Shown here: positions 1,558-41,543 of the stretch, one piece after another
Position numbering within the stretch: position 1 is the first letter of the stretch
Layout of the letters: the number at the start of each line of letters is the position of its first letter
Source of the DNA: Sulfurimonas sp.
GTDB lineage: Bacteria; Campylobacterota; Campylobacteria; Campylobacterales; Sulfurimonadaceae
Reading direction: 5' to 3'
Assembly: GCA_021732045.1 (NCBI GenBank)
Contig: JAKFWK010000004.1
Coordinates: 1-64,000 of the forward strand
DNA: 64,000 nt
Notes under the pieces: model-generated
Databases searched by the model: none
What the model saw: only the letters and a program-made list of their open reading frames with translations
What the model was told of the DNA's origin: nothing
Position numbers and translations under genes: made by a program

Positions 1558-2535
1558 TTAAAAACTTAATTCGTCGTATGCTCTTGAAACATTTATTGAA
1601 TTTAACAATTTATACATTGCTTTATCTTTAAATTCTAAAAGTGGAACAGCTTCAACTATACCTGTACTATCTATACCATTTTTCATTGCTTCTAAGATTC
1701 TATCTTTTGTTAAAGTAAAATATTGAACAGATTCATTCGCAGCAGTCTTATTGATTATAAATCCGTGCCCTGGAATAAGAGTATTCCATTCTTTTGAATT
1801 AATCATCTCCAACGCTTTAAGTTGGCCTAAAACAGAACCATCTCTATTTGATGTAATTCTACCATTCATAACCAAGTCTCCAGCGAAAATAAGTTTATTT
1901 TTTGGCATATACATAAAGAAGTCTTCAGCAGAATGTCCATTACCAACAGCAACGTACTCAAGCTCAACACCATCTACTTTGAATTTTATACCTTCTTTAT
2001 GCCACTCATCAACATGAATAATTTTTGTTCCTCTTATAGCGTTTTCCGAAAGAGTTTGAAACATTCTTGTATCAGTTTGACCAACTTTATAGTTTTTGTT
2101 TATTGACTCAGGTCCAATTAGTTTTGCATTATGAACTTCTTTGTAATAATTATTTCCTAACCAATGATCATCGTGTTCATGACTTAAAATTACAGTTGAA
2201 ACTGGTAATTTTGCAATTTTACTCATTGCAGCGTAGGCTTGCTTAGCATATACATACGAAGGACCAGTATCCCACAAGATATATGAACTATCTGCTTTTA
2301 TATAACAAGAATTTGACATATTACCAGCATTTTCTTTTGTTGGTGCCTCTAATGCCCCAAAGAAACACCATACATTATCACTAACTTTTTTTGGCACTAA
2401 ATTATACTGGAACTCTTTAGTTGATTTTTTTGATTTTGATACTTTTGCTTTATTATCACTTGCTGAACTTACAGTTGTAATAGACAAAAGAGCAATTGCT
2501 GAAATCATCAGTGGACTTAATATCTTTTTAATCAT
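1558..2535 (-). CDS. soxH: SoxH-like MBL-fold metallo-hydrolase, exported
   Basis: A 325-residue protein with an N-terminal signal peptide (about residues 1-25, ending VSSA-S) and a metallo-beta-lactamase domain. The HxHxDH zinc motif is SHEHDDHW (H119, H121, D123, H124). Further ligands are likely in GNGHSAED, FAGD and IPGHG. SoxH-like proteins accompany sox clusters; their substrate is not settled, though a role in thiol or sulfane metabolism is suspected. It is the last gene of the leftward sox operon, 154 nt after soxZ and separated from it by two strong hairpins. The start has AAGGAG just upstream. A paralogue lies at 26786-27760. Confidence 0.8.
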   Translation of the reverse strand: MIKKILSPLMISAIALLSITTVSSASDNKAKVSKSKKSTKEFQYNLVPKKVSDNVWCFFGALEAPTKENAGNMSNSCYIKADSSYILWDTGPSYVYAKQAYAAMSKIAKLPVSTVILSHEHDDHWLGNNYYKEVHNAKLIGPESINKNYKVGQTDTRMFQTLSENAIRGTKIIHVDEWHKEGIKFKVDGVELEYVAVGNGHSAEDFFMYMPKNKLIFAGDLVMNGRITSNRDGSVLGQLKALEMINSKEWNTLIPGHGFIINKTAANESVQYFTLTKDRILEAMKNGIDSTGIVEAVPLLEFKDKAMYKLLNSINVSRAYDELSF

Positions 2536-2689: not shown

Positions 2690-2986
2690 CTATTTAATTT
2701 TAGCAGTTCCTGTATCTTTTTTACCTTTATTGTCAACAGAGTCAACAACAATCTCATCACCAGCTTTCGCACCATTTATATCAAATTTGAAATAAGGATC
2801 TTTTGATAGGAATGGCCCAGTAGAAGCCTCCCACACAGTTTTTCCATTTAATTTCGCAGTAATATGAGTAATATATTCTTCAGCTGGCAATTTTTTTGCT
2901 GCTGCTTCTTCTTTACCTGCCATCAAACTCTCTGCCATAATCTTAACTTCTGCAGAATCGCCTTTTAAAGTTGCTTTTACTTTCAT
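2690..2986 (-). CDS. soxZ: Thiosulfate oxidation carrier subunit SoxZ
   Basis: A 98-residue protein of the size and all-beta pattern of SoxZ, without a signal peptide. Features typical of the family are an N-terminal KVKATLKGDSAEVKI strand, HITAKLNGKTVWEASTGPFL in the middle, and the lysine-rich C-terminus. SoxZ dimerises with SoxY in the periplasm and is carried out with it through the SoxY Tat signal. The dimer carries the sulfur substrate between Sox enzymes. It lies 63 nt downstream of soxY on the same strand. A second soxYZ copy in a soxXYZAB cluster is usual for this group but is outside the window. Confidence 0.95.
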   Translation of the reverse strand: MKVKATLKGDSAEVKIMAESLMAGKEEAAAKKLPAEEYITHITAKLNGKTVWEASTGPFLSKDPYFKFDINGAKAGDEIVVDSVDNKGKKDTGTAKIK

Positions 2987-3049: not shown

Positions 3050-3499
3050 TCAACCTCCACAACCACCAATTGAAACTTCTACTTTTTGAGCAGTTTTATA
3101 TAATTTACCATCTGCACCTTTTGCAACAATAGTTACTTCAGCAGTTTTTTTCATTTTGATTTTAGTCATAAGGTCTATTTTATTACCATATAATTCAAAT
3201 ACAACTACAGCACTTCTAGGGTTTGCATCTTGAAAAACAGCAACAGTTGTTAACTCTATATCTGACTTGATACCGATTGGCACAGCACCACCGTTTTCTG
3301 CTAATTTAGGAGCTTTAATCTCAATTTTGCCTTCAATCATAGCACCTTTTCCAAATAGTGCCTCAATAGCTTCCTTGCTTGATGGAGCTTCCCATGCGCT
3401 AGCATTAGTTGCTCTGAAATCCGTAGCACTTAAGCCAACTGGTAATACTGTTGCAGCAGCAGCTACTGCACCTAAAGTTAAAAATTTTCTTCTTTGCAT
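3050..3499 (-). CDS. soxY: Sulfur carrier protein SoxY
   Basis: A 149-residue protein with a Tat signal (QRRKFLTLGAVAAAATVLP, residues 2-20). It ends in the diagnostic swinging-arm motif GGCGG (residues 145-149), whose Cys147 carries the sulfur intermediate as a thioconjugate. It works with SoxZ as the carrier of the Sox pathway, and neighbouring SoxCD oxidises the bound sulfane sulfur. Length and both termini are complete. Gene order soxC-D-Y-Z on the minus strand matches the second sox cluster of Sulfurimonas-type bacteria. Confidence 0.97.
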   Translation of the reverse strand: MQRRKFLTLGAVAAAATVLPVGLSATDFRATNASAWEAPSSKEAIEALFGKGAMIEGKIEIKAPKLAENGGAVPIGIKSDIELTTVAVFQDANPRSAVVVFELYGNKIDLMTKIKMKKTAEVTIVAKGADGKLYKTAQKVEVSIGGCGG

Positions 3500-3539: not shown

Positions 3540-4694
3540 TTACTTACTAGATTCTACCATATAATTAACAATCTCTGACATCTGTGCATCAGTTAAGTCC
3601 ATTGCGCCGCCTTTTGGTGGCATACCACCAACACCATTGATTGCATTGTGATTTACCTTATCCATGCCTTTTGCTGTTACTTTAGCCCAAGCATTCTTGT
3701 CTCCAACAGGTGGTGCACCCATAGCATCTGTTTTATGACAAACAGCACATGAAGCATCATATAGTTTTTGACCCTCAGAAACTGCTCCGCCTTTAGATGC
3801 ATCTTCTTTTGGTAAATCTCTTACTACAGAGTATGCAGGAACAACCGCAGTAATCTCATTTACAATTTTTGCAACAGATTCTTTTGGACAGTTTTTCATA
3901 CAACGAGTACCAACTGCACCAAAGTTTTTAGGATTCTTGAAGAATGCTCTTACATTTTCAACACCTTTTGCTCCATCAATATTTGGATAGAAACCATTAC
4001 GATTTGGCATAACAATTTTCATGATTGACTTTTTATCTAAAACAAAATCATCATCCATTTTTTTGCCATCTATCTTGATTTCACTTTGAGCCAATAAGTA
4101 AGCTGTTACAGCATACATTTGGTCAGGTGAGTAGCTTTTTGGATGTGCGTACGGCATAGCATCACGAATATACCAAATAAGAGTACTTACTTGTGGCCAA
4201 TATGAGCCAATAGTTCTATTTGGAGCATCTTTGCCTGGGCAAGTTCTTTGGTTTTTAAGTGAAGCTACACTTCCACCTGTTAGTGTTGGATAACCTTTGC
4301 CGCCAGCACCAAACTCTCCGTGACAAACAGCACAGTCTTTATCGTAAAGCGCTTCTCCATCTGAAGGAGTTCCAGCACCCTCTGGTAATCCTGTACCATC
4401 TGGCATAATATCTGTATCCCAAGCTTTTAACTCAGCAGCAGTTGGTGTTCTACCAAAATTTACACCTTTAGTAGCTTGTGTATTGTAACGATATGCAGCA
4501 TATGTGCCATTCGCTCTCTTGTAAGTAACACCACCGTCCAAAGCATTTTTAATTGGACTATACACACCTGCGGCAGCAGGATTTACCTTTGATTTATCGG
4601 CACTTGTTGTGGCAGCAAAACAGTTTGTAAACAAAACAGTGCTAGCAACTACAGAAGCTCCTAAAACAATTAATTTATTATTTAATTTAATCAT
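3540..4694 (-). CDS. soxD: Diheme cytochrome c SoxD
   Basis: A 384-residue exported cytochrome with a signal peptide (residues 1-27) and two CxxCH heme sites (C121-C124-H125 and C316-C319-H320), as expected for SoxD. MPNRNGFYP (from M229) and GMPP near the C-terminus offer candidate axial methionines. Extra cysteines at 152, 265 and 269 are not heme sites. SoxD accepts the six electrons released by SoxC during sulfane oxidation and passes them to the respiratory chain. It starts 16 nt downstream of soxC. If soxC is really inactivated by its in-frame stop, this subunit would be orphaned. Confidence 0.93.
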   Translation of the reverse strand: MIKLNNKLIVLGASVVASTVLFTNCFAATTSADKSKVNPAAAGVYSPIKNALDGGVTYKRANGTYAAYRYNTQATKGVNFGRTPTAAELKAWDTDIMPDGTGLPEGAGTPSDGEALYDKDCAVCHGEFGAGGKGYPTLTGGSVASLKNQRTCPGKDAPNRTIGSYWPQVSTLIWYIRDAMPYAHPKSYSPDQMYAVTAYLLAQSEIKIDGKKMDDDFVLDKKSIMKIVMPNRNGFYPNIDGAKGVENVRAFFKNPKNFGAVGTRCMKNCPKESVAKIVNEITAVVPAYSVVRDLPKEDASKGGAVSEGQKLYDASCAVCHKTDAMGAPPVGDKNAWAKVTAKGMDKVNHNAINGVGGMPPKGGAMDLTDAQMSEIVNYMVESSK

Positions 4695-4710: not shown

Positions 4711-6051
4711 TTATTTACTTGCACAATTGTCTGTTCTAACTTGAACATTATGAACTGAACCATCTTGTCTAACTTCCCAAGTACAAATTGAGTTTCTGTG
4801 ATAAACACCCTCAACACCAATAATATCTTTTTCTTGAGTAACTGAAGGCTGAACAAATCCAGCATCATCTATAGCGCGAGATTGTAACAGTAGTGGCTTA
4901 CCTTCGTATTTGTACATATACGAGAATCTAGTCCAAGATTTAGGAAGAATCAGACCTTTTAGGTTTGCTTCAACATAGTTTTGTCCACCATCAAATGATA
5001 TATCTACAGTTTTAATAGTTCCATGCCCACTCCAAGCAAGTCCTTCAATTTCCACCAAATCACCTTTTTTAAGGTCTGACCATGGTTTTTCAGGACATGG
5101 GCTAGTTATGATTGAATTTACTTCTAATGGATAAAAGTGTTGGATTGCTCTACCATCTTTTGTAAGAACAGTATATTTAGAAGTCTCTTCTTTACAGTAC
5201 CAAGGCTCCGCACCGAATTCTAAACGCTTAAGATATTTAATACATAAGTTAGCTTCCCAACCTGGTAGCATCAAACGAACAGGATAGCCTTGCTCTGGAC
5301 GAAGAGCTTCACCATTTTGAGCATAGACAATCATTGCGTCATCTAAAACTTTTTCAACTGGAATAGTTCTGCTCATTTCTGAACCGTCAGATCCCTCAGC
5401 TAGCATCCATTTTGCAGTTGGCTTAAGGCCTAATTCATCAAGAATTACTGACAAACGAACACCAGTCCATTCAGCATTACTCATCATACCTTTTACAAAT
5501 TGTAAAGAGTTGAATTGAGGACCTTTCCACTCAGCAGCACCATTTGCAGGACACTCCATAAAAAGAATTCTACTCTCAGATGGATATTTTTTTAACTGCT
5601 CAAGAGTTAAAACGATTGGTTTTTCAACAAGACCATGAATCATAAGTCTGTATTTGTTAGGATCAACATGTGCAACACCATTGTGAGTTCTAGTAAAGTG
5701 CAAACCGTTTGGTGTGATAATACCACTTAACTCATGGATTGGTGACATTGAAACAGCAGCATGCATATCTCCAGCGGATGACATAAGACTTGAAGTTCTT
5801 CTTACAACATTATGCTCATAAGCAGATGGGATTCCATATGGATGCTTATTAAGCTCATCACCTAAAGTTGTTCCTCATTTTGTATGATGAACGATATTTT
5901 CATCATCAGCCAATAATTTAGCAGGCGCCAATATGCTTGCAGCAGCGATAGCGCTCACAGAATAAGCAGCAGTTCTTTTGAAGAATTCTCTTCTACTAGA
6001 TTGCTCTGCGTTTGTAGTTGTTTCTAAACTATTTTCAGAAATTTTACTCAT
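4711..6051 (-). pseudogene. soxC: Sulfane dehydrogenase SoxC, interrupted by in-frame TGA
   Basis: Read from ATG 6051 (strong AAGGAGG ahead of it) the frame encodes a 446-residue SoxC. It has a Tat signal (SRREFFKRTAAYSV), the Mo-cofactor domain with conserved Cys167 in FMECPANG, and the C-terminal dimerisation domain. Codon 59 (5877-5875) is TGA. The following residues GTTLGDELNKHPYGIPS align with the SoxC region where a Trp stands three residues before Leu-Gly, so TGA replaces TGG. The frame is otherwise intact, and the next in-frame ATG (5784, codon 90) would give 357 residues without a signal. Options are a recent nonsense mutation, readthrough or UGA recoding, or a sequence error. SoxC binds SoxD to oxidise carrier-bound sulfane sulfur in the periplasm. 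Confidence 0.85.
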
Positions 6052-20336: not shown

Positions 20337-21203
20337 ATGAAAATCTTTTTAAGAGTTATTTTTGTTATTTTTATCGTTATGCTTTTGGATATTCTTCGCT
20401 ACTTTGTATATCCATCAGTAGATTCTCTTAAGACAAACAACCCAATTCCTACAGCATTTATGGAATACCGCACTGCTGAGTGGGCAAATGAAAATAGAGA
20501 TATAAAGATTAACCAAAAATGGGTTAGTATAAAAAATATCTCTCCAAATCTTATAAAAGCTGTACTTATTGCCGAGGATGATGGTTTTTACAAACATGAT
20601 GGTTTTGATATTAAAGGCATGGAAAATGCAATAGAGCGGAGTATAAAAAAAGGGGTGCTTGCAGGTGGTAGCACCATCTCTCAACAACTCTCAAAAAATC
20701 TATATCTCTCTCCTAGTAAAAACCCTATTCGTAAGGTTAAAGAGGCAATTATCACATACAGAATTGAAAAAAGCCTCTCAAAGCGCCGTATTTTAGAGAT
20801 ATATCTAAATATCGCAGAGTGGGGAGATGGGATTTTTGGCATAGAGGCAGCATCTCGCCACTACTACGGCAAAAGTGCGAAAAATCTTAACGCAAAAGAG
20901 GCAGCACGACTAGCCACAATCCTTCCAAATCCAATCAAATACAATCCTCTTGGAAACCAAAAATATGTTATTAATCGTTCCGCAATTATCTACAAAGTTA
21001 TGATGCGTCGCGGTATTGTGATATCTGCCTTTAAAGAGGTAATGGCTCTGCCAAAAATTGATGAGATAGTAAAAGATGAAAACCAAAGTGCTCAAGCCGT
21101 GGATGAGACAAATATACAAAACGACGAGCAAAAAATAGATAAAGATATAGCTCAGGATGAACCTAAGGCAGATGTGGAAATACCAGCTGCAAATGGACAG
21201 TAG
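20337..21203 (+). CDS. mtgA: Monofunctional peptidoglycan transglycosylase
   Basis: A 288-residue GT51 enzyme with one N-terminal membrane anchor (residues 3-22). The catalytic motif AEDDGFYKHDGFD includes the essential Glu. GGSTISQQLSKNLYLS, RKVKEAI and NIAEWGDGIFGIEAASRHYY are all family motifs. It polymerises lipid II into glycan strands in the periplasm without a transpeptidase domain. The last 50 residues form an acidic, low-complexity tail (DENQSAQ...AANGQ) not needed for catalysis and longer than in E. coli MtgA. Confidence 0.94.
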   Translation: MKIFLRVIFVIFIVMLLDILRYFVYPSVDSLKTNNPIPTAFMEYRTAEWANENRDIKINQKWVSIKNISPNLIKAVLIAEDDGFYKHDGFDIKGMENAIERSIKKGVLAGGSTISQQLSKNLYLSPSKNPIRKVKEAIITYRIEKSLSKRRILEIYLNIAEWGDGIFGIEAASRHYYGKSAKNLNAKEAARLATILPNPIKYNPLGNQKYVINRSAIIYKVMMRRGIVISAFKEVMALPKIDEIVKDENQSAQAVDETNIQNDEQKIDKDIAQDEPKADVEIPAANGQ

Positions 21204-21250
21204 AGATTAAAATAATATTTTAGTCATAGGCACTCTACCTATGTTTCAAA

Positions 21251-21514
21251 TCAACAATTAAAAATTAAAATCTTATCCTCTTCAATCAGATAAAAAAGTC
21301 GATAATCTCCTATTCGATAGCGATAATATTGCTCAAATTCACCTTTTAATTTTTTAATATTTGTCCCAAAATATGGATTTTGTCGCAGTTGTGGATAGAT
21401 AATATTCTTTATTTTTGTGTAGAGTTTTTTATATATACCACTTTTTACTTTTTCAAATGTTTTGGTTTCGGCTATCTTAAAATCAAACAATCGTAAACTT
21501 TCCGCTTTTCGCAT
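21251..21514 (-). CDS. RelE/ParE-family toxin
   Basis: An 87-residue basic protein ending with the RelE/ParE core strands (YRYRIGDYRLFYLIEEDKILIF). PYFGTNIKKLKG matches the loop before them. Such toxins cleave mRNA on the ribosome or poison gyrase; which one is not decidable here. Its start lies inside the 3' end of the antitoxin gene (32-bp overlap), the normal coupled layout. Confidence 0.8.
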   Translation of the reverse strand: MRKAESLRLFDFKIAETKTFEKVKSGIYKKLYTKIKNIIYPQLRQNPYFGTNIKKLKGEFEQYYRYRIGDYRLFYLIEEDKILIFNC

Positions 21515-21719
21515 CTTCTAGTCCGCTTCGCAGATTTGATATCAGCTCCTTATCCATAAGAATATCCGCCATTTCACTGCCATCAACATACTGTGACGAG
21601 GTTAAGTATTGCATTGTTGCAAACTCAATAAAGTTAGAAATATTACGTTTTTGCCCTTGCGCCACCATTGCAAACAGCTGATAGACTGAGTCATCTACCC
21701 TCATAGTGAGTGTTTTCAT
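21483..21719 (-). CDS. Ribbon-helix-helix antitoxin
   Basis: A 78-residue protein beginning MKTLTMRVDDSVYQLFAMVA, a ribbon-helix-helix DNA-binding N-terminus. A C-terminal toxin-neutralising segment follows (ILMDKELISNLRSGLEDAKSG). I chose ATG 21719 because AAAGGATTC precedes it, rather than an in-frame ATG 30 nt further upstream. It pairs with the overlapping RelE/ParE toxin. Confidence 0.8.
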   Translation of the reverse strand: MKTLTMRVDDSVYQLFAMVAQGQKRNISNFIEFATMQYLTSSQYVDGSEMADILMDKELISNLRSGLEDAKSGKFTIV

Positions 21720-21774
21720 AATGAATCCTTTTAAATATATTTTATTCAAATTTATTCACAATGTCAAAATACCG

Positions 21775-22029
21775 CTATTGTCCTACAACTCCATCAAAAA
21801 AATCACACATTTTTACATCTAAAGCATTGGAAATTTTGTAGAGATGTTCTATATTGAAGTGTTTTTTGTTGTGATAAAGTTCAGCAACAGAGATTAGACC
21901 CACTGATTTTAGTCCAATAGACAAGGCAAGTTCGAGTTGCGTCACCCCTTTTTCTTTACGAATACGCATCACATTAAATCCGACAGTACGATGAAGTGCG
22001 TCAATATCTTGTGGCATTGTATCTTGCAA
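21775..22029 (-). CDS. XRE-family transcriptional regulator
   Basis: An 84-residue single-domain helix-turn-helix protein (GFNVMRIRKEKGVTQLELAL, residues 18-37, then the recognition helix in the SVAELYHNKKHF region). It lies 55 nt upstream of the antitoxin on the same strand and faces an outer-membrane protein gene. The shared intergenic region contains repeated CTATAGTTA elements, one of them 10 nt before its own start, suggesting it represses itself and the divergent gene. Confidence 0.85.
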   Translation of the reverse strand: MQDTMPQDIDALHRTVGFNVMRIRKEKGVTQLELALSIGLKSVGLISVAELYHNKKHFNIEHLYKISNALDVKMCDFFDGVVGQ

Positions 22030-22038
22030 AAAAACTAC

Positions 22039-22103
22039 CTATAGTTAAACTAAGTGTAAGTTTAATAGTTATACACTGCAACATCAACTAACTATAGTTA
22101 GTT
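22039..22103. promoter_or_regulatory. Divergent operator with repeated CTATAGTTA sites
   Basis: A perfect 18-bp palindrome AACTAACTATAGTTAGTT (22086-22103) lies 23 bp before the outer-membrane protein gene. The same core CTATAGTTA recurs at 22039-22047, 53 bp away, next to the XRE gene start. A weaker AATAGTTAT lies between them. The TATAGT core can double as a -10 box, so binding would block transcription. The XRE protein is the likely ligand. Confidence 0.6.
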
Positions 22104-22126
22104 AGACTACTTTAAAGGTTTAAATA

Positions 22127-22666
22127 ATGAAGAAAATTGTACTAGCAGCATTGCTGGCAAGTGGATTAATGGCAGCGGATAGTGGGGTTTATGTTGGTGT
22201 AGATTTGGGAAATACAGCTTATGATGCAAAAGCATCGGCTATGGGTATTAGTGCAACAGAAAAAGATGATGGTGGATCACAAACTCTAAAAGTTGGTTAT
22301 TATTTTGACAAAAACAATAGAGCATCAGCTTTTTTTCAAAATGTTAATACAAGTGGAGGCAAAACAAATATTTATGGAGTCGGGTATGATTATCTAATTG
22401 GAGACAATGCGCTCAAACCTTTTATTGGAGCAATACTAGGACACGGAAGCAGCAAAGCGGATGACAATAGTGTAGATTTAACTGGTGCCGTTTATGGGGC
22501 ACAAGCCGGTGTTAATTATTCAATCAATGAAAATTTTTCAGTTGAAGCAGGCTTTCGCTATATGAACTCAAAAATGCAAGATACCATTGTGGTTTCAGGT
22601 GTAGATGTAAAGATCGAAGCTGACCCAATCACAAACTGGTTCATCGGTGCTAACTACAAATTCTAA
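22127..22666 (+). CDS. Small outer-membrane beta-barrel protein
   Basis: A 179-residue exported protein: signal peptide MKKIVLAALLASGLMA (1-16), then about eight amphipathic strands ending in the classic C-terminal aromatic (GANYKF). This is the size and pattern of OmpA-barrel or OmpX/Opa-like porins. It probably stands alone between an operator-bearing promoter and a hairpin. Ligand or function is unknown. Confidence 0.78.
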   Translation: MKKIVLAALLASGLMAADSGVYVGVDLGNTAYDAKASAMGISATEKDDGGSQTLKVGYYFDKNNRASAFFQNVNTSGGKTNIYGVGYDYLIGDNALKPFIGAILGHGSSKADDNSVDLTGAVYGAQAGVNYSINENFSVEAGFRYMNSKMQDTIVVSGVDVKIEADPITNWFIGANYKF

Positions 22667-22697
22667 ATCTGTTTTCTCCTATTTTTTCTCAAACATT

Positions 22698-22723
22698 GCA
22701 AGAGCCACATCTCAGGCTCTTGC
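22698..22723 (+). terminator. Hairpin after the outer-membrane protein gene
   Basis: A perfect 9-bp stem (GCAAGAGCC / GGCTCTTGC) with an 8-nt loop lies 32 nt after the stop. Only TCTAAAAATTT follows, so termination strength is uncertain. Confidence 0.55.
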
Positions 22724-22822
22724 TCTAAAAATTTATTTCTTGCATCCACCAAAAAATATATTACACCATTTTCTCAGCTATTTATTGATACTCTTACAGT
22801 ATTAAAAAGTTTGGGGCAAGAA

Positions 22823-23407
22823 ATGTCAGATGAGAAAAATTTAGAGTTTGAAAATGCCGTAAAGAGTATGATGTTTTATGTCGGGGAGGATCCAACTAGG
22901 GAGGGCCTGTTAAAAACTCCAGAGAGAGTAAGAAAGGCGCATAAGTTTATATTTGGTGGCTACAAAGAAAATGCACAGGAAATTCTAGAATCCGCCATGT
23001 TTACGAGCTCAAATGATGAGATGGTACTCTTAAAAGATATAGAATTTTACTCCACATGTGAGCATCATCTTTTGCCAATTATCGGAAGAGTTCATGTTGC
23101 CTACATACCTGATGGCAAAGTTGTTGGGCTCTCAAAAATTCCAAGAGTAGTAGATGTTTTTGCTAGGAGAATGCAGATTCAAGAGCAGCTTACAGAGCAG
23201 ATTGCGGACGCTATTATGGATTCTATCAAGCCAAAAGGTGTGGCGGTTGTAGTTCAAGCTCGTCATATGTGCATGGAGATGAGGGGGGTTGAGAAGATAA
23301 ACTCAACAACGACATCATCAGCTCTTCGTGGACTTTTCAAAAAAGATGAAAAGACAAGAAGTGAGTTTTTCTCGCTTATAAACTCTCCAACTGGGACAAG
23401 ATACTAA
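22823..23407 (+). CDS. folE: GTP cyclohydrolase I
   Basis: A 194-residue enzyme for the first step of tetrahydrofolate (and queuosine) synthesis. [20 protein letters not shown] contains the zinc Cys and the catalytic His pair, and [12 protein letters not shown] supplies the third zinc ligand. Start ATG 22823 is preferred to TTG 22811. It is separated from fliI by 4 nt. Confidence 0.95.
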
Positions 23408-23411
23408 GCAG

Positions 23412-24719
23412 ATGCCACTCTCTTCCCTAAAAAAAAGAATCTCATCAACAAATCATTCAGAGATGTTTGGCGAAGTTGTAAAGATTAACGCAACCGTCAT
23501 CACGGGAACTGGGCTGAAAGTCAGCATCAGCGATATGGTAAGGATAGTCTCAAACGACACAGCTCAAGAGATTACAGGAATGATTACAGAGATAGACGGT
23601 GCTACTTTTTTTATAACACCATTTAGTTTTGTAGAGGGATTTTGTTCAGGCGATAGAGTTTTTCTAGATCAGGCTGGTATGAATATCCCAGTCGGCGAAG
23701 GTCTGCTTGGAAGAGTTGTAGATCCATTTATGCGGCCAATTGACGGCAAAGGTCCCATCATCTCAACAAAATTATCTCCAATCATAAAAGCACCAATTGC
23801 TGCGATGAAACGAGGAATGATTGATGAAGTTTTTAGTGTTGGAGTAAAGAGCATTGATGGACTCTTAACTTGCGGAAAAGGGCAGAAGCTCGGTATTTTT
23901 GCAGGAAGTGGTGTTGGAAAATCTACTCTAATGGGAATGATTGTAAGAGGAGCCGATGCACCCATAAAGGTAGTTGCGCTTATCGGCGAGAGAGGAAGAG
24001 AAGTTCCTGAGTTTATAGAGAAAAATCTAGGCGGGAATCTAGAAAATACCGTGATAATAGTTGCGACTTCGGATGATTCTCCACTCATGAGAAAGTATGG
24101 TGCGTTTGCTGCGATGAGTGTTGCTGAGTATTTTAAAGATAAAAATTTAGATGTTCTTTTTATTATGGACTCTGTCACAAGGTTTGCTATGGCTCAGAGG
24201 GAAATTGGACTAGCTCTAGGTGAACCACCAACCTCAAAAGGTTATCCACCATCATCCCTAACTCTTCTTCCCCAACTTATGGAGCGAGCAGGGAAAGAGG
24301 AGGGAAAAGGCTCTATTACCGCCTTTTTCACAGTCTTAATTGAGGGAGATGATATGAGTGACCCAATCGCCGATCAGTCTCGTTCTATCTTAGATGGACA
24401 TATTGTCTTGTCTCGTGAAATGACAGATTTTGGAATTTATCCACCTATCCATATACTAAACTCCGCATCAAGGGTTATGAGCGACATTGTAACTCCTGAA
24501 CACCTAAGGGCTATTTTAAAATTTAGAAGACTCTACACGCTCTTGAAAGAGAACGAGGTGCTTATCCGCATTGGAGCGTATCAGAAAGGGAGTGATCCTG
24601 AATTAGATGAAGCGATAAATAAAAAAAAGGAAATGGAAGAGTTTATGACACAAAGCTCAACACTTCAAAATCCATTTCAAGATAGTGTTAATTCGCTTTT
24701 GAGTATAGCTGATAGCTAA
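23412..24719 (+). CDS. fliI: Flagellum-specific ATP synthase FliI
   Basis: A 435-residue ATPase of the F1-beta/FliI family, with Walker A GIFAGSGVGKST, ALIGERGREVPEF and the DSVTRFAMAQREIGLA signature specific to FliI and type III secretion ATPases. It energises export of flagellar proteins. It is isolated from other flagellar genes, as is common in this phylum, and sits behind folE. Its last 4 bp overlap the convergent propeller gene. Confidence 0.95.
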   Translation: MPLSSLKKRISSTNHSEMFGEVVKINATVITGTGLKVSISDMVRIVSNDTAQEITGMITEIDGATFFITPFSFVEGFCSGDRVFLDQAGMNIPVGEGLLGRVVDPFMRPIDGKGPIISTKLSPIIKAPIAAMKRGMIDEVFSVGVKSIDGLLTCGKGQKLGIFAGSGVGKSTLMGMIVRGADAPIKVVALIGERGREVPEFIEKNLGGNLENTVIIVATSDDSPLMRKYGAFAAMSVAEYFKDKNLDVLFIMDSVTRFAMAQREIGLALGEPPTSKGYPPSSLTLLPQLMERAGKEEGKGSITAFFTVLIEGDDMSDPIADQSRSILDGHIVLSREMTDFGIYPPIHILNSASRVMSDIVTPEHLRAILKFRRLYTLLKENEVLIRIGAYQKGSDPELDEAINKKKEMEEFMTQSSTLQNPFQDSVNSLLSIADS

Positions 24720-31708: not shown

Positions 31709-33328
31709 TTACTCAGCGTCTAGTGTTGCTTGAACAAATGCCAATATTGAAGGGTTTGGAGTTTGCAGTCTTGAAGTAAACTCTGGATGAAATTGAACTC
31801 CTAAAAACCAAGGATGCCCTTTTATCTCAACAGTTTCAATAAGTCCATCAGACTCACCAGTTACAATCATACCAGCGCCCTCAAGAGCTTCTCTGTAAAT
31901 TGGATTTGCTTCGTAACGGTGACGATGTCTCTCAAATATAGTTTTTGCCCCACCGTAAGCCTTTCTAAGCAGTGAACCATCTTTTGTATCACAAGGATAT
32001 TCACCAAGTCTTAGAGTTCCACCCATTGGTGATTTGTGAGTACGAAGTTGTGTGTTCCCACTTTGATCTAAAAAGTTGTCTATTAGATAAATCATAGGAT
32101 ATGGTGTATTTTCATCAAACTCTACAGAGTTCGCACCCTCAAATCCAAGAACATTTCTTGCATACTCAACAAGTGTTAGCTGCATTCCAAGACAGATACC
32201 GAGATATGGGATTTTATTTTCTCTTGCGTACTTAATAGCCTCTATTTTACCCTCAACTCCACGATTGCCAAATCCGCCTGCAACTAAAACACTATCACAA
32301 TCCTTCAAGAGCTCCTGTGCCCCTCGTGCTTCTATAGCTTCGGAGTCTACCCAGCATATTTCAACACGAGTATCCAAATGAGCGCCGGAATGTATAAGTG
32401 ACTCTGTTAATGATTTGTAAGACTCTTTTAGTTGAAGATACTTTCCAACAAATCCAACTACAACTCTTTTTTTAGGCTGAACTATCTTTTTAACCAGAGC
32501 ATCCCACTCTTCCATATTTGGATTCAACTCATCAAAACCAAGCTCTTTTGCTATAGGACCCAAAATATTTTGTCTTAAAAATGACATCGGTACATCATAT
32601 ATGCTAGCTGCGTCAAGTGCTTCTATGACGCTATTGCTTGAGACATCACAACTCATGGCAAGTTTTTTTCTAAATGTTTTTGGAAGAGGAAGTTCACTTC
32701 TAGCAATTATCATCTGAGGAGTTATACCGATGCGACGAAGCTCTTGAACAGAGTGTTGTGTTGGTTTACTCTTTAACTCGCCAGCAGCTTTTATGAAAGG
32801 AATAAGCGTTACATGAATAAAAAATGTTCCCTCAACCTCATCATCATGCTTCATTTGACGAATCGCCTCCATAAACGGAAGTCCCTCTATGTCGCCAACT
32901 GTTCCGCCAAGCTCCACGATAAGAACTTCATGCCCTTCGCCAGCCTCTTTTATGCGTTTTACAATCTCTCCAACAATATGCGGAATTACTTGAATAGTCT
33001 GCCCAAGATAACCACCTGAACGCTCTCTCTCGATTACGCTTGAGTAAACTTGTCCTGTTGTAAAGTTGCTTGTTTTTAAAAATGAAGTATCTAAAAACCT
33101 CTCATAATTTCCAATGTCTAGGTCGGTCTCAGCGCCATCTTTCGTAACAAAAACCTCGCCATGCTCCAAGGGGCTCATGGTTCCAGGATCAACATTTATG
33201 TATGGATCTATTTTTAACATACCAACATCTTTGCCGGAGTGTTTAAGCAAAGTACCAACACTAGCTGCCGTTATCCCTTTTCCAAGAGAACTTAAAACTC
33301 CACCGGTAACGAAGATATATTTAGTCAT
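31709..33328 (-). CDS. pyrG: CTP synthase
   Basis: A 539-residue enzyme converting UTP, ATP and glutamine to CTP. The N-terminal synthetase domain begins [19 protein letters not shown]. The C-terminal glutaminase domain has nucleophile Cys in LGICLGMQL and the GVQFHPEF His-Glu pair. ATG 33328 is preferred to an in-frame ATG 12 nt upstream because TTGGAG precedes it. recJ follows on the same strand. Confidence 0.96.
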
Positions 33329-33360
33329 AAATGGCTCCAAGATGTTAAATTAAAGTAGGA

Positions 33361-33366
33361 ATTATA
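33361..33366 (-). promoter_or_regulatory. -10 box of the pyrG promoter
   Basis: TATAAT on the minus strand lies 32 bp before the pyrG ATG. Just beyond it is a GTGG-AAA-CCAC dyad (33367-33377). Confidence 0.5.
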
Positions 33367-33454
33367 GTGGAAACCACCTTAAAATGTAGAGTATCTGCTA
33401 GGCTAAAAGAATGTTTTGCTACAATGATAAAATAATATAATCTGAAAGAATTCT

Positions 33455-35080
33455 ATGGATTTTGTACTTTTTTATATCGTTGCTGCGTTGGGCATCTCAA
33501 CTGTTTTAAATCTTATTTTAAAGCGTTTTGGTGTTTCTCAAATCATAGGCTATATTTTTACGGGCACTATCATAGTCTATGCTTTTGATTTGAAAGAGAT
33601 GAATGACTCTGCCCTTTTAGAACATATTGCTGAGTTTGGTATAGTATTTTTGATGTTTACTATCGGACTTGAAATATCTTTGGCAAAAATGAATAGCATG
33701 AAAAAGGAGATATTTTTAAATGGATTTTTACAAGTCAGCCTAACGGCTTTTGTCGTTTATATAATTAGTCATTATTTTTTCAATCTCGGATCAACTCCGG
33801 CCATAATCATATCACTTGCATTCGCACTCTCATCCACTGCCGTTGTTTTGAGCTATCTAAAGAGTTCAAAAGAGATACATAATCCATATGGACAAAAAGC
33901 AACCGGAATACTTATTTTTCAAGATATTGCCGTTATTCCGATTCTGATTCTACTTAGTTTTTTATCAAATGAGGGGCATCAATCAATAGGCATTATCTTA
34001 AGAGACACGGCAATAAGCGCAATAGTAGTTATTGGACTTTTGTTTGTTGTCGGAAAAAGAGTGATGACTTGGCTTTTGCATTTCTCGGCCTCAAGCGAAG
34101 TTGATGAGCTATTTATGGGCTCTGTTCTTTTTATAGTCGTAAGCGCTTCCCTGCTTGCTTCATATATGGGCTTTACCTACTCTCTTGGGGCTTTTGTAGC
34201 AGGAATGATTATAGCTGAAACAAAGTATCATCATAAAGTAGAATCTGATATAGCGCCATTTAAAGATATTCTTCTGGGTACATTTTTCATAGTTGTAGGC
34301 ATGAAGATAGACCTTGTTTTTTTCATAGACAATCTCTCAGTGATTGTGGGTATTTTTGCTCTTATTTTAATTTTAAAAACAGCTGTTATTTTTGCCATTC
34401 TTCGCGTCAGCTCATCAACCACTCTATCTATAAAAACAGCTCTTGCACTTTCACAAGTTGGAGAGTTTTCTTTTGTAATTTTTGCGGTTGCAAACAGTGG
34501 AGGAATACTCTCTAAGGAGTTTGAATCACTCTTTATTCTTGTTGTAATTTTGTCTATGATTATTACCCCATTTTTTATCACCAGAATCAATAATTTTGTA
34601 AACAGCATAAGCAAGCGACCATACCTTGGGCTTAACACATCTGTTTTTGGTTCAAGACAAGACCATGTAATCCTGTGCGGATACAGTACAGTAGGAAAAT
34701 TTGTAGCTAAAAATCTTGACGTTATAGGTGCTCCTTATGTTATCATAGACAACAATCCAAAGCATGTTCAAGAAGCGCTACGAAAAGGAAAAGAAGCATA
34801 TCTTGGAGATATGTCAAAACTCTCTTTGCTAGAGGCACTAAATGCAAAAAATTCAGCAGCAGTGATTGTTACGCTTGACAATATTGACAAAAAAAGAGCA
34901 GTTTGTGAGGCAATTTTAAAACATACAAAAGATATAAATCTAGTTGTAAAGATATCTACACTAGATGACAAGAGAAATTTAAGAGATCTAAAAATCACAT
35001 CAGTCGTTGATGAAAAAATTGAATTAGGGCGAATTCTTGTTGAGAGAATGCTCACATGCCAAATAGGAGCACATAGGTGA
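33455..35080 (+). CDS. Kef-type monovalent cation:proton antiporter with TrkA_N domain
   Basis: A 541-residue protein. Residues 1-380 form about twelve helices of the CPA2 family (SQIIGYIFTGTIIVY, LMFTIGLEISLAKM, FALSSTAVVL, YSLGAFVAGMIIAETKYHH). The cytosolic C-terminal TrkA_N domain opens HVILCGYSTVGKFVAKNL. It is predicted to exchange K+ or Na+ for protons under nucleotide control. It overlaps the following HAD gene by 4 bp, although the two functions have no obvious link. Confidence 0.9.
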   Translation: MDFVLFYIVAALGISTVLNLILKRFGVSQIIGYIFTGTIIVYAFDLKEMNDSALLEHIAEFGIVFLMFTIGLEISLAKMNSMKKEIFLNGFLQVSLTAFVVYIISHYFFNLGSTPAIIISLAFALSSTAVVLSYLKSSKEIHNPYGQKATGILIFQDIAVIPILILLSFLSNEGHQSIGIILRDTAISAIVVIGLLFVVGKRVMTWLLHFSASSEVDELFMGSVLFIVVSASLLASYMGFTYSLGAFVAGMIIAETKYHHKVESDIAPFKDILLGTFFIVVGMKIDLVFFIDNLSVIVGIFALILILKTAVIFAILRVSSSTTLSIKTALALSQVGEFSFVIFAVANSGGILSKEFESLFILVVILSMIITPFFITRINNFVNSISKRPYLGLNTSVFGSRQDHVILCGYSTVGKFVAKNLDVIGAPYVIIDNNPKHVQEALRKGKEAYLGDMSKLSLLEALNAKNSAAVIVTLDNIDKKRAVCEAILKHTKDINLVVKISTLDDKRNLRDLKITSVVDEKIELGRILVERMLTCQIGAHR

Positions 35081-39255: not shown

Positions 39256-40287
39256 ATGCAAGATATAAAACTAACACAATATAGTCACGGAGCAGGCTGT
39301 GGCTGTAAAATCTCCCCAAAACTCCTAGATACCATACTTACAAGCTCAAGAGAGAAGATTCACTATCCCTCCCTTCTTGTTGGAAACGAAAGCAGAGACG
39401 ATGCTGCCTGTTTTGACCTTGGAAATGGCACCTCTCTTTTGAGTACAACCGACTTTTTTATGCCAATTGTCGATGATCCTTTTACTTTTGGACGCATCGC
39501 CGCAACAAATGCGATTAGCGATATTTACGCCATGGGAGGAAAACCTTTGATGGCAATTGCTATCTTTGGTTGGCCCATAGAAAAACTTAGTGCAGAAGTT
39601 GCTCAAAGAGTCATTGATGGTGGTCGTTCTGTTTGTGAAGAGGCAGGGATTCCTCTTGCTGGCGGACATAGCATAGACTCGCCTGAACCTATTTTTGGAC
39701 TTGCTGTTAGCGGTTTGGTTGAGAACAAAAATCTAAAACAAAACAACACTGCAACCGTTGGTTGTGAGCTGTTTTTGACAAAACCTCTTGGGATTGGGAT
39801 TTTAACGACCGCACAAAAACAGGGTAAAATCAACGATGATGATATAAATGTTGCTATTGAAGCCATGTGTACTCTCAATAAAATAGGAGCCGATATTTCA
39901 AAGTTTAAGGGTGTAACGGCGCTGACGGATGTAACAGGATTTGGTCTTTTGGGGCATCTGAGTGAGATTTGCGATGGAAGTGGCATCTCGGCACGAGTTC
40001 GTTTTAATGATGTTCCTCTTTTGGCAAATGTTAAAAAATATCTAGCAATGGGATGCGTCCCTGGTGGAACTAGAAGAAACTTTGAGAGTTACGGTCATCA
40101 CATCAGCCCAATGAGAGAAGATGTTGAAAATATTCTTTGTGATGCACAAACTTCGGGCGGACTGCTTTGTGTTGTGAAAAAAGAGAGCGTAAAAGAGTTC
40201 CTTGAATTATGCTCCAAATCAGGCTTAGAACTTAGCTCAATAGGCGAGACTATTGAGAGTTCAAAACATCTTATAGAGGTTGTATGA
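39256..40287 (+). CDS. selD: Selenide, water dikinase
   Basis: A 343-residue enzyme making selenophosphate from selenide and ATP. The N-terminal [12 protein letters not shown] (residues 9-20) has Cys15 at the catalytic site, where some homologues carry selenocysteine. The AIR-synthase-type fold motifs [23 protein letters not shown] and DAQTSGGLL are intact. The start of mnmH overlaps its stop by 4 bp, so selenium is directed at least to tRNA. Confidence 0.96.
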
Positions 40288-41357
40288 GCCTAGTTTTAGT
40301 GGATGATTTTTTATCTGTCGTTTTAGAAAACAGAGCTTTACTAGATGTGCGAGCGCCCATTGAGTTTGAGGGTGGCGCATTTCCTACCTCAACAAATATA
40401 GCTATTTTAGATGATGAACAGAGGCGTCTTGTTGGTACCTGCTATAAGCAAGATGGCAATGCAGCAGCCGTTAAACTTGGTCAAAAACTCGTAGATAAAC
40501 AACAGAGAGTTTTGGCGTGGAAGGCTTACATAAAAGAAAATCCAGATGCGTATCTTTACTGTTTTCGAGGAGGACAAAGATCTCGCATCTCTCAAGCTTG
40601 GCTAGATGAAGCAGGCGTAGTGATTCCTAGGCTAAAAGGCGGATACAAGGCGTTTCGTAGATTTTTAGCGGAGCAATCTTTAGAGATTAGTGCTAACACA
40701 AAAACAGTAATTATCGGCGGACGAACTGGTTCTGGAAAAACTATTTTGCTTCAAAAACTAAGCAATGCCATCGACCTTGAGGCAATCGCCAAGCATAGAG
40801 GTTCATCATTTGGAAAGTTTATCTCACCTCAACCATCGCAAATTGATTTTGAAAATGCTCTTTATTATAAACTCATTAAGCACAACGCAGGGCAACATAA
40901 GCAGTTAATTATTGAGCACGAAAGCCACAATATAGGACGAGTTTATATCCCAAAACCTATTTTCGATAACTTCAACAAAGGCTCTCTCGTGATTTTGCAC
41001 ACACCTTTGGCAGAGCGCATAGAAATTACACATGAAGAGTATATAACTAATGCAATCAAAGAGTATGAGGCTATTTTTAAAGAGGATGGAAAACTCCTTT
41101 GGTATGAAAATATTGTTGCAGGCTTAGATAGGATACAAAAACGATTAGGAAGCGAGCGGCATCTAAATATAAAATCTATTCTAACTCAAAGTTATACAAA
41201 CGACAATAACGAGGGACATAAAGAGTGGATTAAAATTTTACTCAGTGAATATTACGACCCAATGTATGATTATCAATTGGCAAAAAGTTCTCTACCTGTT
41301 TTGTTTGAGGGAAACGCGAAAGAGATAATTGACTTTTTACATAACACAACTATTTAA
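40284..41357 (+). CDS. mnmH: tRNA 2-selenouridine synthase
   Basis: A 357-residue protein with an N-terminal rhodanese domain (catalytic Cys93 in YCFRGGQRS) and a P-loop domain (GGRTGSGKT, 145-153), the SelU/MnmH architecture. It replaces sulfur by selenium in 2-thiouridine at tRNA position 34 via a geranylated intermediate, using selenophosphate from SelD encoded just upstream. Also known as selU or ybbB. Confidence 0.95.
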
Positions 41358-41458: not shown

Positions 41459-41543
41459 ATGATACCAATTCTTAATATTAATATAATTTTAAGCTTACTT
41501 ATTTTATACTTCTAAAAATTAATACCTAAAATAAAGGCTTAGC

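Follow-up and report, generated by a model that had tools for sequence, protein, structure and literature searches.

An in-frame TGA at a conserved tryptophan codon of soxC in a Sulfurimonas contig, probably a recent nonsense mutation

The soxCDYZ cluster and the interrupted soxC frame

The stretch of DNA analysed here, referred to as the window, comprises 64,000 nucleotides (positions 1 to 64,000) of contig JAKFWK010000004.1 from a Sulfurimonas sp. [GenBank assembly GCA_021732045.1]. A row of sox genes lies near its start, and the features relevant to this report are as follows.

4711..6051, minus strand: soxC, encoding the molybdenum subunit of sulfane dehydrogenase, a 446-codon frame broken at codon 59.
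5914..6051, minus strand: codons 1 to 46 of soxC with the twin-arginine (Tat) signal (boundary approximate), which the TGA separates from the mature enzyme.
5875..5877, minus strand: the in-frame TGA, codon 59 of soxC, which is TGG in the nearest genome compared (G001) and in 77 of 80 relatives.
4711..5784, minus strand: the remainder of soxC, 357 codons beginning at the next in-frame start beyond the TGA, the product of which would be without an export signal.
3540..4694, minus strand: soxD-like gene for a c-type cytochrome, named by its place after soxC and by matches to c-type cytochromes, all below cut-offs.
3050..3499, minus strand: soxY (TIGR04488, 121.8 bits, just under the cut-off of 125).
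2690..2986, minus strand: soxZ (TIGR04490, 90.1 bits, cut-off 76).
1558..2535, minus strand: SoxH-like zinc metallohydrolase gene beside soxCDYZ (TIGR04558, 156.5 bits, below the cut-off of 300).

The soxC frame consists of 446 codons followed by TAA, and its one internal stop is the TGA at 5877-5875, located between the twin-arginine signal and the mature enzyme. The sequence SRREFFKR near the N-terminus is presumably the Tat motif, and an AAGGAGG was seen by eye ahead of the start at 6051. The next ATG, GTG or TTG in frame after the TGA is the ATG at 5784, ahead of which no strong ribosome-binding site was seen by eye. Against the SoxC model TIGR04555 the remainder of 357 residues reaches 551.2 bits, above the curated cut-off of 420, in a match that extends from model position 70 through to the last. 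The gene has the neighbours of a soxC, with a soxD partner and soxYZ alongside, and soxD, soxY, soxZ and the SoxH-like gene are all open with zero base differences from G001. The original prediction, that codon 59 of an otherwise open 446-residue soxC is TGA and that soxC has no other defect and soxD, soxY and soxZ are intact, is borne out by the reading frames, in which no further stop or frame break was seen.

Conservation of codon 59 and direction of the change

G001, which is 99% complete and has 89% of the window's sampled words in common, aligns with the window in two blocks, one of 21,207 bases at 99.85% identity and one of 41,243 bases at 99.49%. Around soxC, 4,066 of 4,071 bases are identical. 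Codon 59 is TGG in G001, the 58 codons upstream of it are kept, and the 446-residue frame is open, in line with the proposal that a single TGG to TGA change had occurred. An unbroken frame leading from the Tat signal into mature SoxC is therefore present in G001 and absent from the window, and because the identical 446-codon frame is open in G001 it is not a chance frame.

Three bases of soxC differ between the window and G001, at 5584, 5875 and 5908, and four further genomes (G022, G125, G024 and G006) were used as outgroups for polarising them. At 5875 all four carry the base of G001, while at 5584 all four match the window, and at 5908 three match the window and none G001. The differences at 5584 and 5908 are synonymous and are assigned to the G001 side, which leaves the TGA as the sole soxC change derived on the side of the window. 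At both synonymous sites the window has the commonest codon in a set of 110 loci (TAT 78 versus TAC 32, the latter not being rare, and GCT 47 versus GCC 5).

The tryptophan predicted to be conserved at this site was found in nearly all relatives. Codon 59 is TGG in 77 of the 80 relatives fetched, and the remaining three are L033 and L054, in which a contig end leaves the site uncovered, and L059, in which the aligned Trp is displaced by one residue towards the C-terminus. A wider set of 110 loci, which includes G001 and partly repeats the genomes of the first set, has TGG in 107 and no exceptions besides these three. Chain A of 2XTS, the best-matching solved structure, also has Trp aligned at the site, and Trp is, judging from these alignments, the ancestral residue. 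SoxC matches at E ≤ 1e-100 were obtained in 110 of 135 genomes of the genus, including G001. The site is covered by 107 of these matches, among them the partial matches of G088 and G012, and no stop was found there; those of G065, G087 and G093 begin after residue 59 and are uninformative on the site. None of the 110 matches has an internal TGA. Eight of them contain one TAA each; the only one of these placed, that of G107 (locus L128), falls at codon 434 in a frame of 438, close to where the gene normally ends. In the other 25 genomes, 11 of them among the 79 good ones, SoxC was not matched at this threshold, which a distant or fragmented SoxC may have escaped.

We consider it probable that the Trp-59 codon of soxC became a TGA stop through one recent transition private to this strain. 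The main rival explanation, a serious possibility though short of an even chance, is that the TGA is an error of the consensus or assembly, or a minority variant that the assembler picked, and that the soxC of the organism is intact. One transition is the sole defect of the cluster, with zero differences from G001 in soxD, soxY and soxZ and hence no indication of wider decay, and no stop occurs at the site in the 107 covering matches of the genus; both observations are as expected of an error. The latter also counts directly against the nonsense mutation, as a loss allele would be selected against unless it were very young.

The remaining differences between the window and G001 argue the other way. 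Of the 238 substitutions, 184 are synonymous, 40 are nonsynonymous, 12 are outside listed ORFs and 2 are nonsense. The second nonsense difference, at 22817, was rejected as an artefact of the mechanically placed TTG start of ORF 22811-23407. Polarised coding changes number 31 synonymous, 11 nonsynonymous and 1 nonsense on the side of the window, and 42, 11 and 1 (the start artefact) on that of G001, in a comparison that omits 81 mixed and 48 unresolved coding changes. Most private coding changes of the window (31 of 43) are synonymous, a pattern resembling ordinary variation between strains under purifying selection and not noise, and consensus errors thus cannot be frequent. Gap columns are likewise few, with just 5 across the two aligned blocks. 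Those at 32920 and 32924 cancel in length within ORF 31709-33340, that at 33331 is 10 bases inside the mechanically chosen start of the same ORF, that at 21203 borders a 1.55 kb insertion, and that at 41502 is between ORFs. As 33 of the 1,338 transitions possible in soxC make a stop, one stop in 43 private coding changes is unremarkable by mutation alone. The TGA is derived on the lineage of the window and the frame is intact in near-identical G001. Nonsense (pseudogene) alleles known within bacterial species share this combination of one derived stop and an intact copy in a near-identical relative, and the present case, known from assembled sequence, differs only in the gene concerned. A nonsense mutation is favoured over a single-base consensus error.

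Other differences from G001 were recorded over the window. A segment of approximately 1.55 kb (21207-22760), which contains ORF 22127-22666, is located between the aligned blocks and is missing from G001, and substitutions pile up immediately past it. Substitutions are strongly clustered at 22000-24000 and 32000-35000 (37 in a single 1-kb bin and 42 in another), with almost none from 42 to 63 kb, a mosaic pattern of the kind that inter-strain recombination would leave. The first base of the window is aligned with base 26 of a contig of G001, and the contig of the window thus probably ends close to where that one does, possibly because of a repeat.

UGA decoding and internal initiation

TGA is a normal stop codon here, with 12 of the 61 listed ORFs ending in TGA, 36 in TAA and 13 in TAG. 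An altered genetic code was considered and rejected after the 14 frames of at least 250 codons that are bounded by TAA or TAG and contain an in-frame TGA had been sorted by eye. In nine the TGA is the end of a listed ORF, four run antisense to ORFs of the list, and the last is soxC, so that no other sense gene with an early TGA was found among such frames in the window.

Low-level misreading of UGA by tRNA-Trp is known in bacteria. Were the ordinary tRNA-Trp to read through the soxC UGA at a low level, the Trp carried at this site by nearly every relative would be restored and SoxC would be partially active, as a consequence of the mutation and not by a designed signal. This is improbable, given that TGA ends ORFs elsewhere in the window, that no other sense gene there (frames of at least 250 codons) has an early TGA, and that the TGA is absent from relatives and has no conserved context. 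As for a suppressor tRNA, the window contains no tRNA gene. Programmed recoding is marked by an in-frame UGA kept in relatives, which here is TGG in G001 and in the 77 relatives, and since the TGA was made on the side of the window alone, programmed recoding at codon 59 appears very unlikely.

Selenocysteine insertion had been raised because selD is present in the window (39256-40287), but selD adjoins mnmH (40284-41357), which encodes a tRNA 2-selenouridine synthase, and it is accounted for by tRNA selenouridine. In G001, taken as a stand-in for the strain of the window, there is no SelA match, and the best matches to SelB (191.6 bits, cut-off 242.25) and tRNA-Sec (35.1 bits, cut-off 47) are below the cut-offs; in 14 named genomes examined as controls, 2 were above the cut-off for selB, 5 for tRNA-Sec and 1 for selA. 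The SECIS-like hairpin that might follow the TGA was also not seen, as the 56 bases beginning one codon ahead of the TGA have no unusual fold (z -0.32, with 67 of 200 shuffles folding at least as well). With TGG in G001 in addition, selenocysteine at this UGA has a negligible probability. The selD-mnmH pair (39256-41357), as no selenocysteine machinery was found in G001, points to selenium use without selenocysteine.

Initiation at the ATG at 5784 would give a cytoplasmic form of 357 residues, which would need a function of its own. The remainder is open and covers most of the SoxC model, as such a form would require. However, the start at 5784 has no counterpart by eye to the AAGGAGG found ahead of 6051, and SoxD and SoxYZ, the partners of SoxC, act in the periplasm. 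A protein search gave 4,926 matches, and among the best 120 the shortest is 416 residues, none is near 357 residues, and only the query itself exceeds 93% identity, in a database clustered at 90% identity where rare truncated forms could be hidden. A functional internal start is accordingly rated as highly improbable.

Sox complement and predicted consequences

Under the preferred explanation, a recent nonsense mutation, translation would stop at 58 residues, shortly beyond the Tat signal, and a restart at 5784 would yield the enzyme core without an export signal, unable to reach periplasmic SoxD and SoxYZ. Because the product would end at 58 residues and any restart product would not be exported, the strain would be without a working sulfane dehydrogenase. 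Loss of SoxC would most likely block the oxidation of SoxYZ-bound sulfur to sulfate. G001 has no match to SoxB and, in a search covering 7 genomes, none to SoxA, and the classical Sox thiosulfate route is for this reason seemingly absent from the species. The one soxZ copy of G001 is within the soxCDYZ cluster, which may be the only Sox cluster of the species. With neither SoxB nor SoxA matched in the nearest genome, what the strain would lose is probably the SoxCDYZ-dependent step by which sulfur or polysulfide is oxidised to sulfate, and not the classical Sox thiosulfate pathway. A SorA-like sulfite dehydrogenase of G001 (375.9 bits over a 328-residue slice, below the cut-off of 600) would not be expected to replace SoxC.

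The original prediction, stored sulfur as the product of thiosulfate, is valid where SoxXA and SoxB are present, but is doubtful for a species whose nearest genome lacks SoxB and SoxA matches. Thiosulfate could still be affected by another route, as strains with soxCDYZ only are described as turning thiosulfate into sulfur (PMC7952632). In Cupriavidus pinatubonensis, an engineered soxCD deletion, which shares the loss of sulfane dehydrogenase, is reported to slow thiosulfate oxidation with a transient build-up of sulfane sulfur (PMC9959259). That organism differs in having a complete Sox system, and its thiosulfate phenotype therefore need not carry over.

The closest known counterparts are Sulfurimonas strains that have soxCDY2Z2 without soxABXY1Z1, namely strain CVO, S. 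xiamenensis and S. lithotrophica. According to the strain comparison in PMC7952632, soxCDY2Z2 is present in 11 of 11 strains and soxABXY1Z1 is missing from S. xiamenensis and S. lithotrophica, both nevertheless able to oxidise thiosulfate to sulfur. The account in PMC10045233 ties elemental sulfur oxidation to soxCDY2Z2 together with an adjacent soxH2-like gene, and cites strain CVO as oxidising elemental sulfur without soxABXY1Z1; oxidation by soxCDYZ only is a proposal there, with the hydrolysis step unresolved. The window shares with these strains the row of soxC, soxD, soxY and soxZ and the adjacent SoxH-like hydrolase gene, as well as the lack of a SoxA or SoxB match in its nearest genome G001, and differs in that its soxC is interrupted by a stop. 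The papers are not fully in agreement on the sox content of the genus, as PMC4584964 attributes soxXYZAB to every Sulfurimonas genome sequenced by 2015 and records strain CVO as a non-user of thiosulfate.

We tentatively suggest that SoxC has been lost, in a natural Sulfurimonas strain, from the one Sox cluster its species possesses, and that the strain subsists by oxidising sulfur incompletely, with sulfur or thiosulfate perhaps left over for its neighbours, though this fuller scenario is more doubtful than the mutation itself. Should the TGA prove genuine, this strain would represent a naturally occurring soxC null, in a species for which the nearest genome has soxCDYZ but neither soxA nor soxB, and it would offer a natural knock-out in which the role of soxCDYZ without soxABX could be tested. 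If the base is an error, it is a warning against taking single stops in assembled genomes as biology.

Across the genus, SoxB is above the cut-off in 54 of 135 genomes, with some match in 39 of the 79 good ones, indicating that the SoxB model works in the genus and that absence of SoxB is common. The 25 of 135 genomes without SoxC at the threshold used here stand against the presence of soxCDY2Z2 in every one of the 11 strains in the comparison of PMC7952632. SoxC matches were found in 110 genomes versus 54 for SoxB, and a SoxC of the soxCDYZ type without SoxB seems to be common in the genus.
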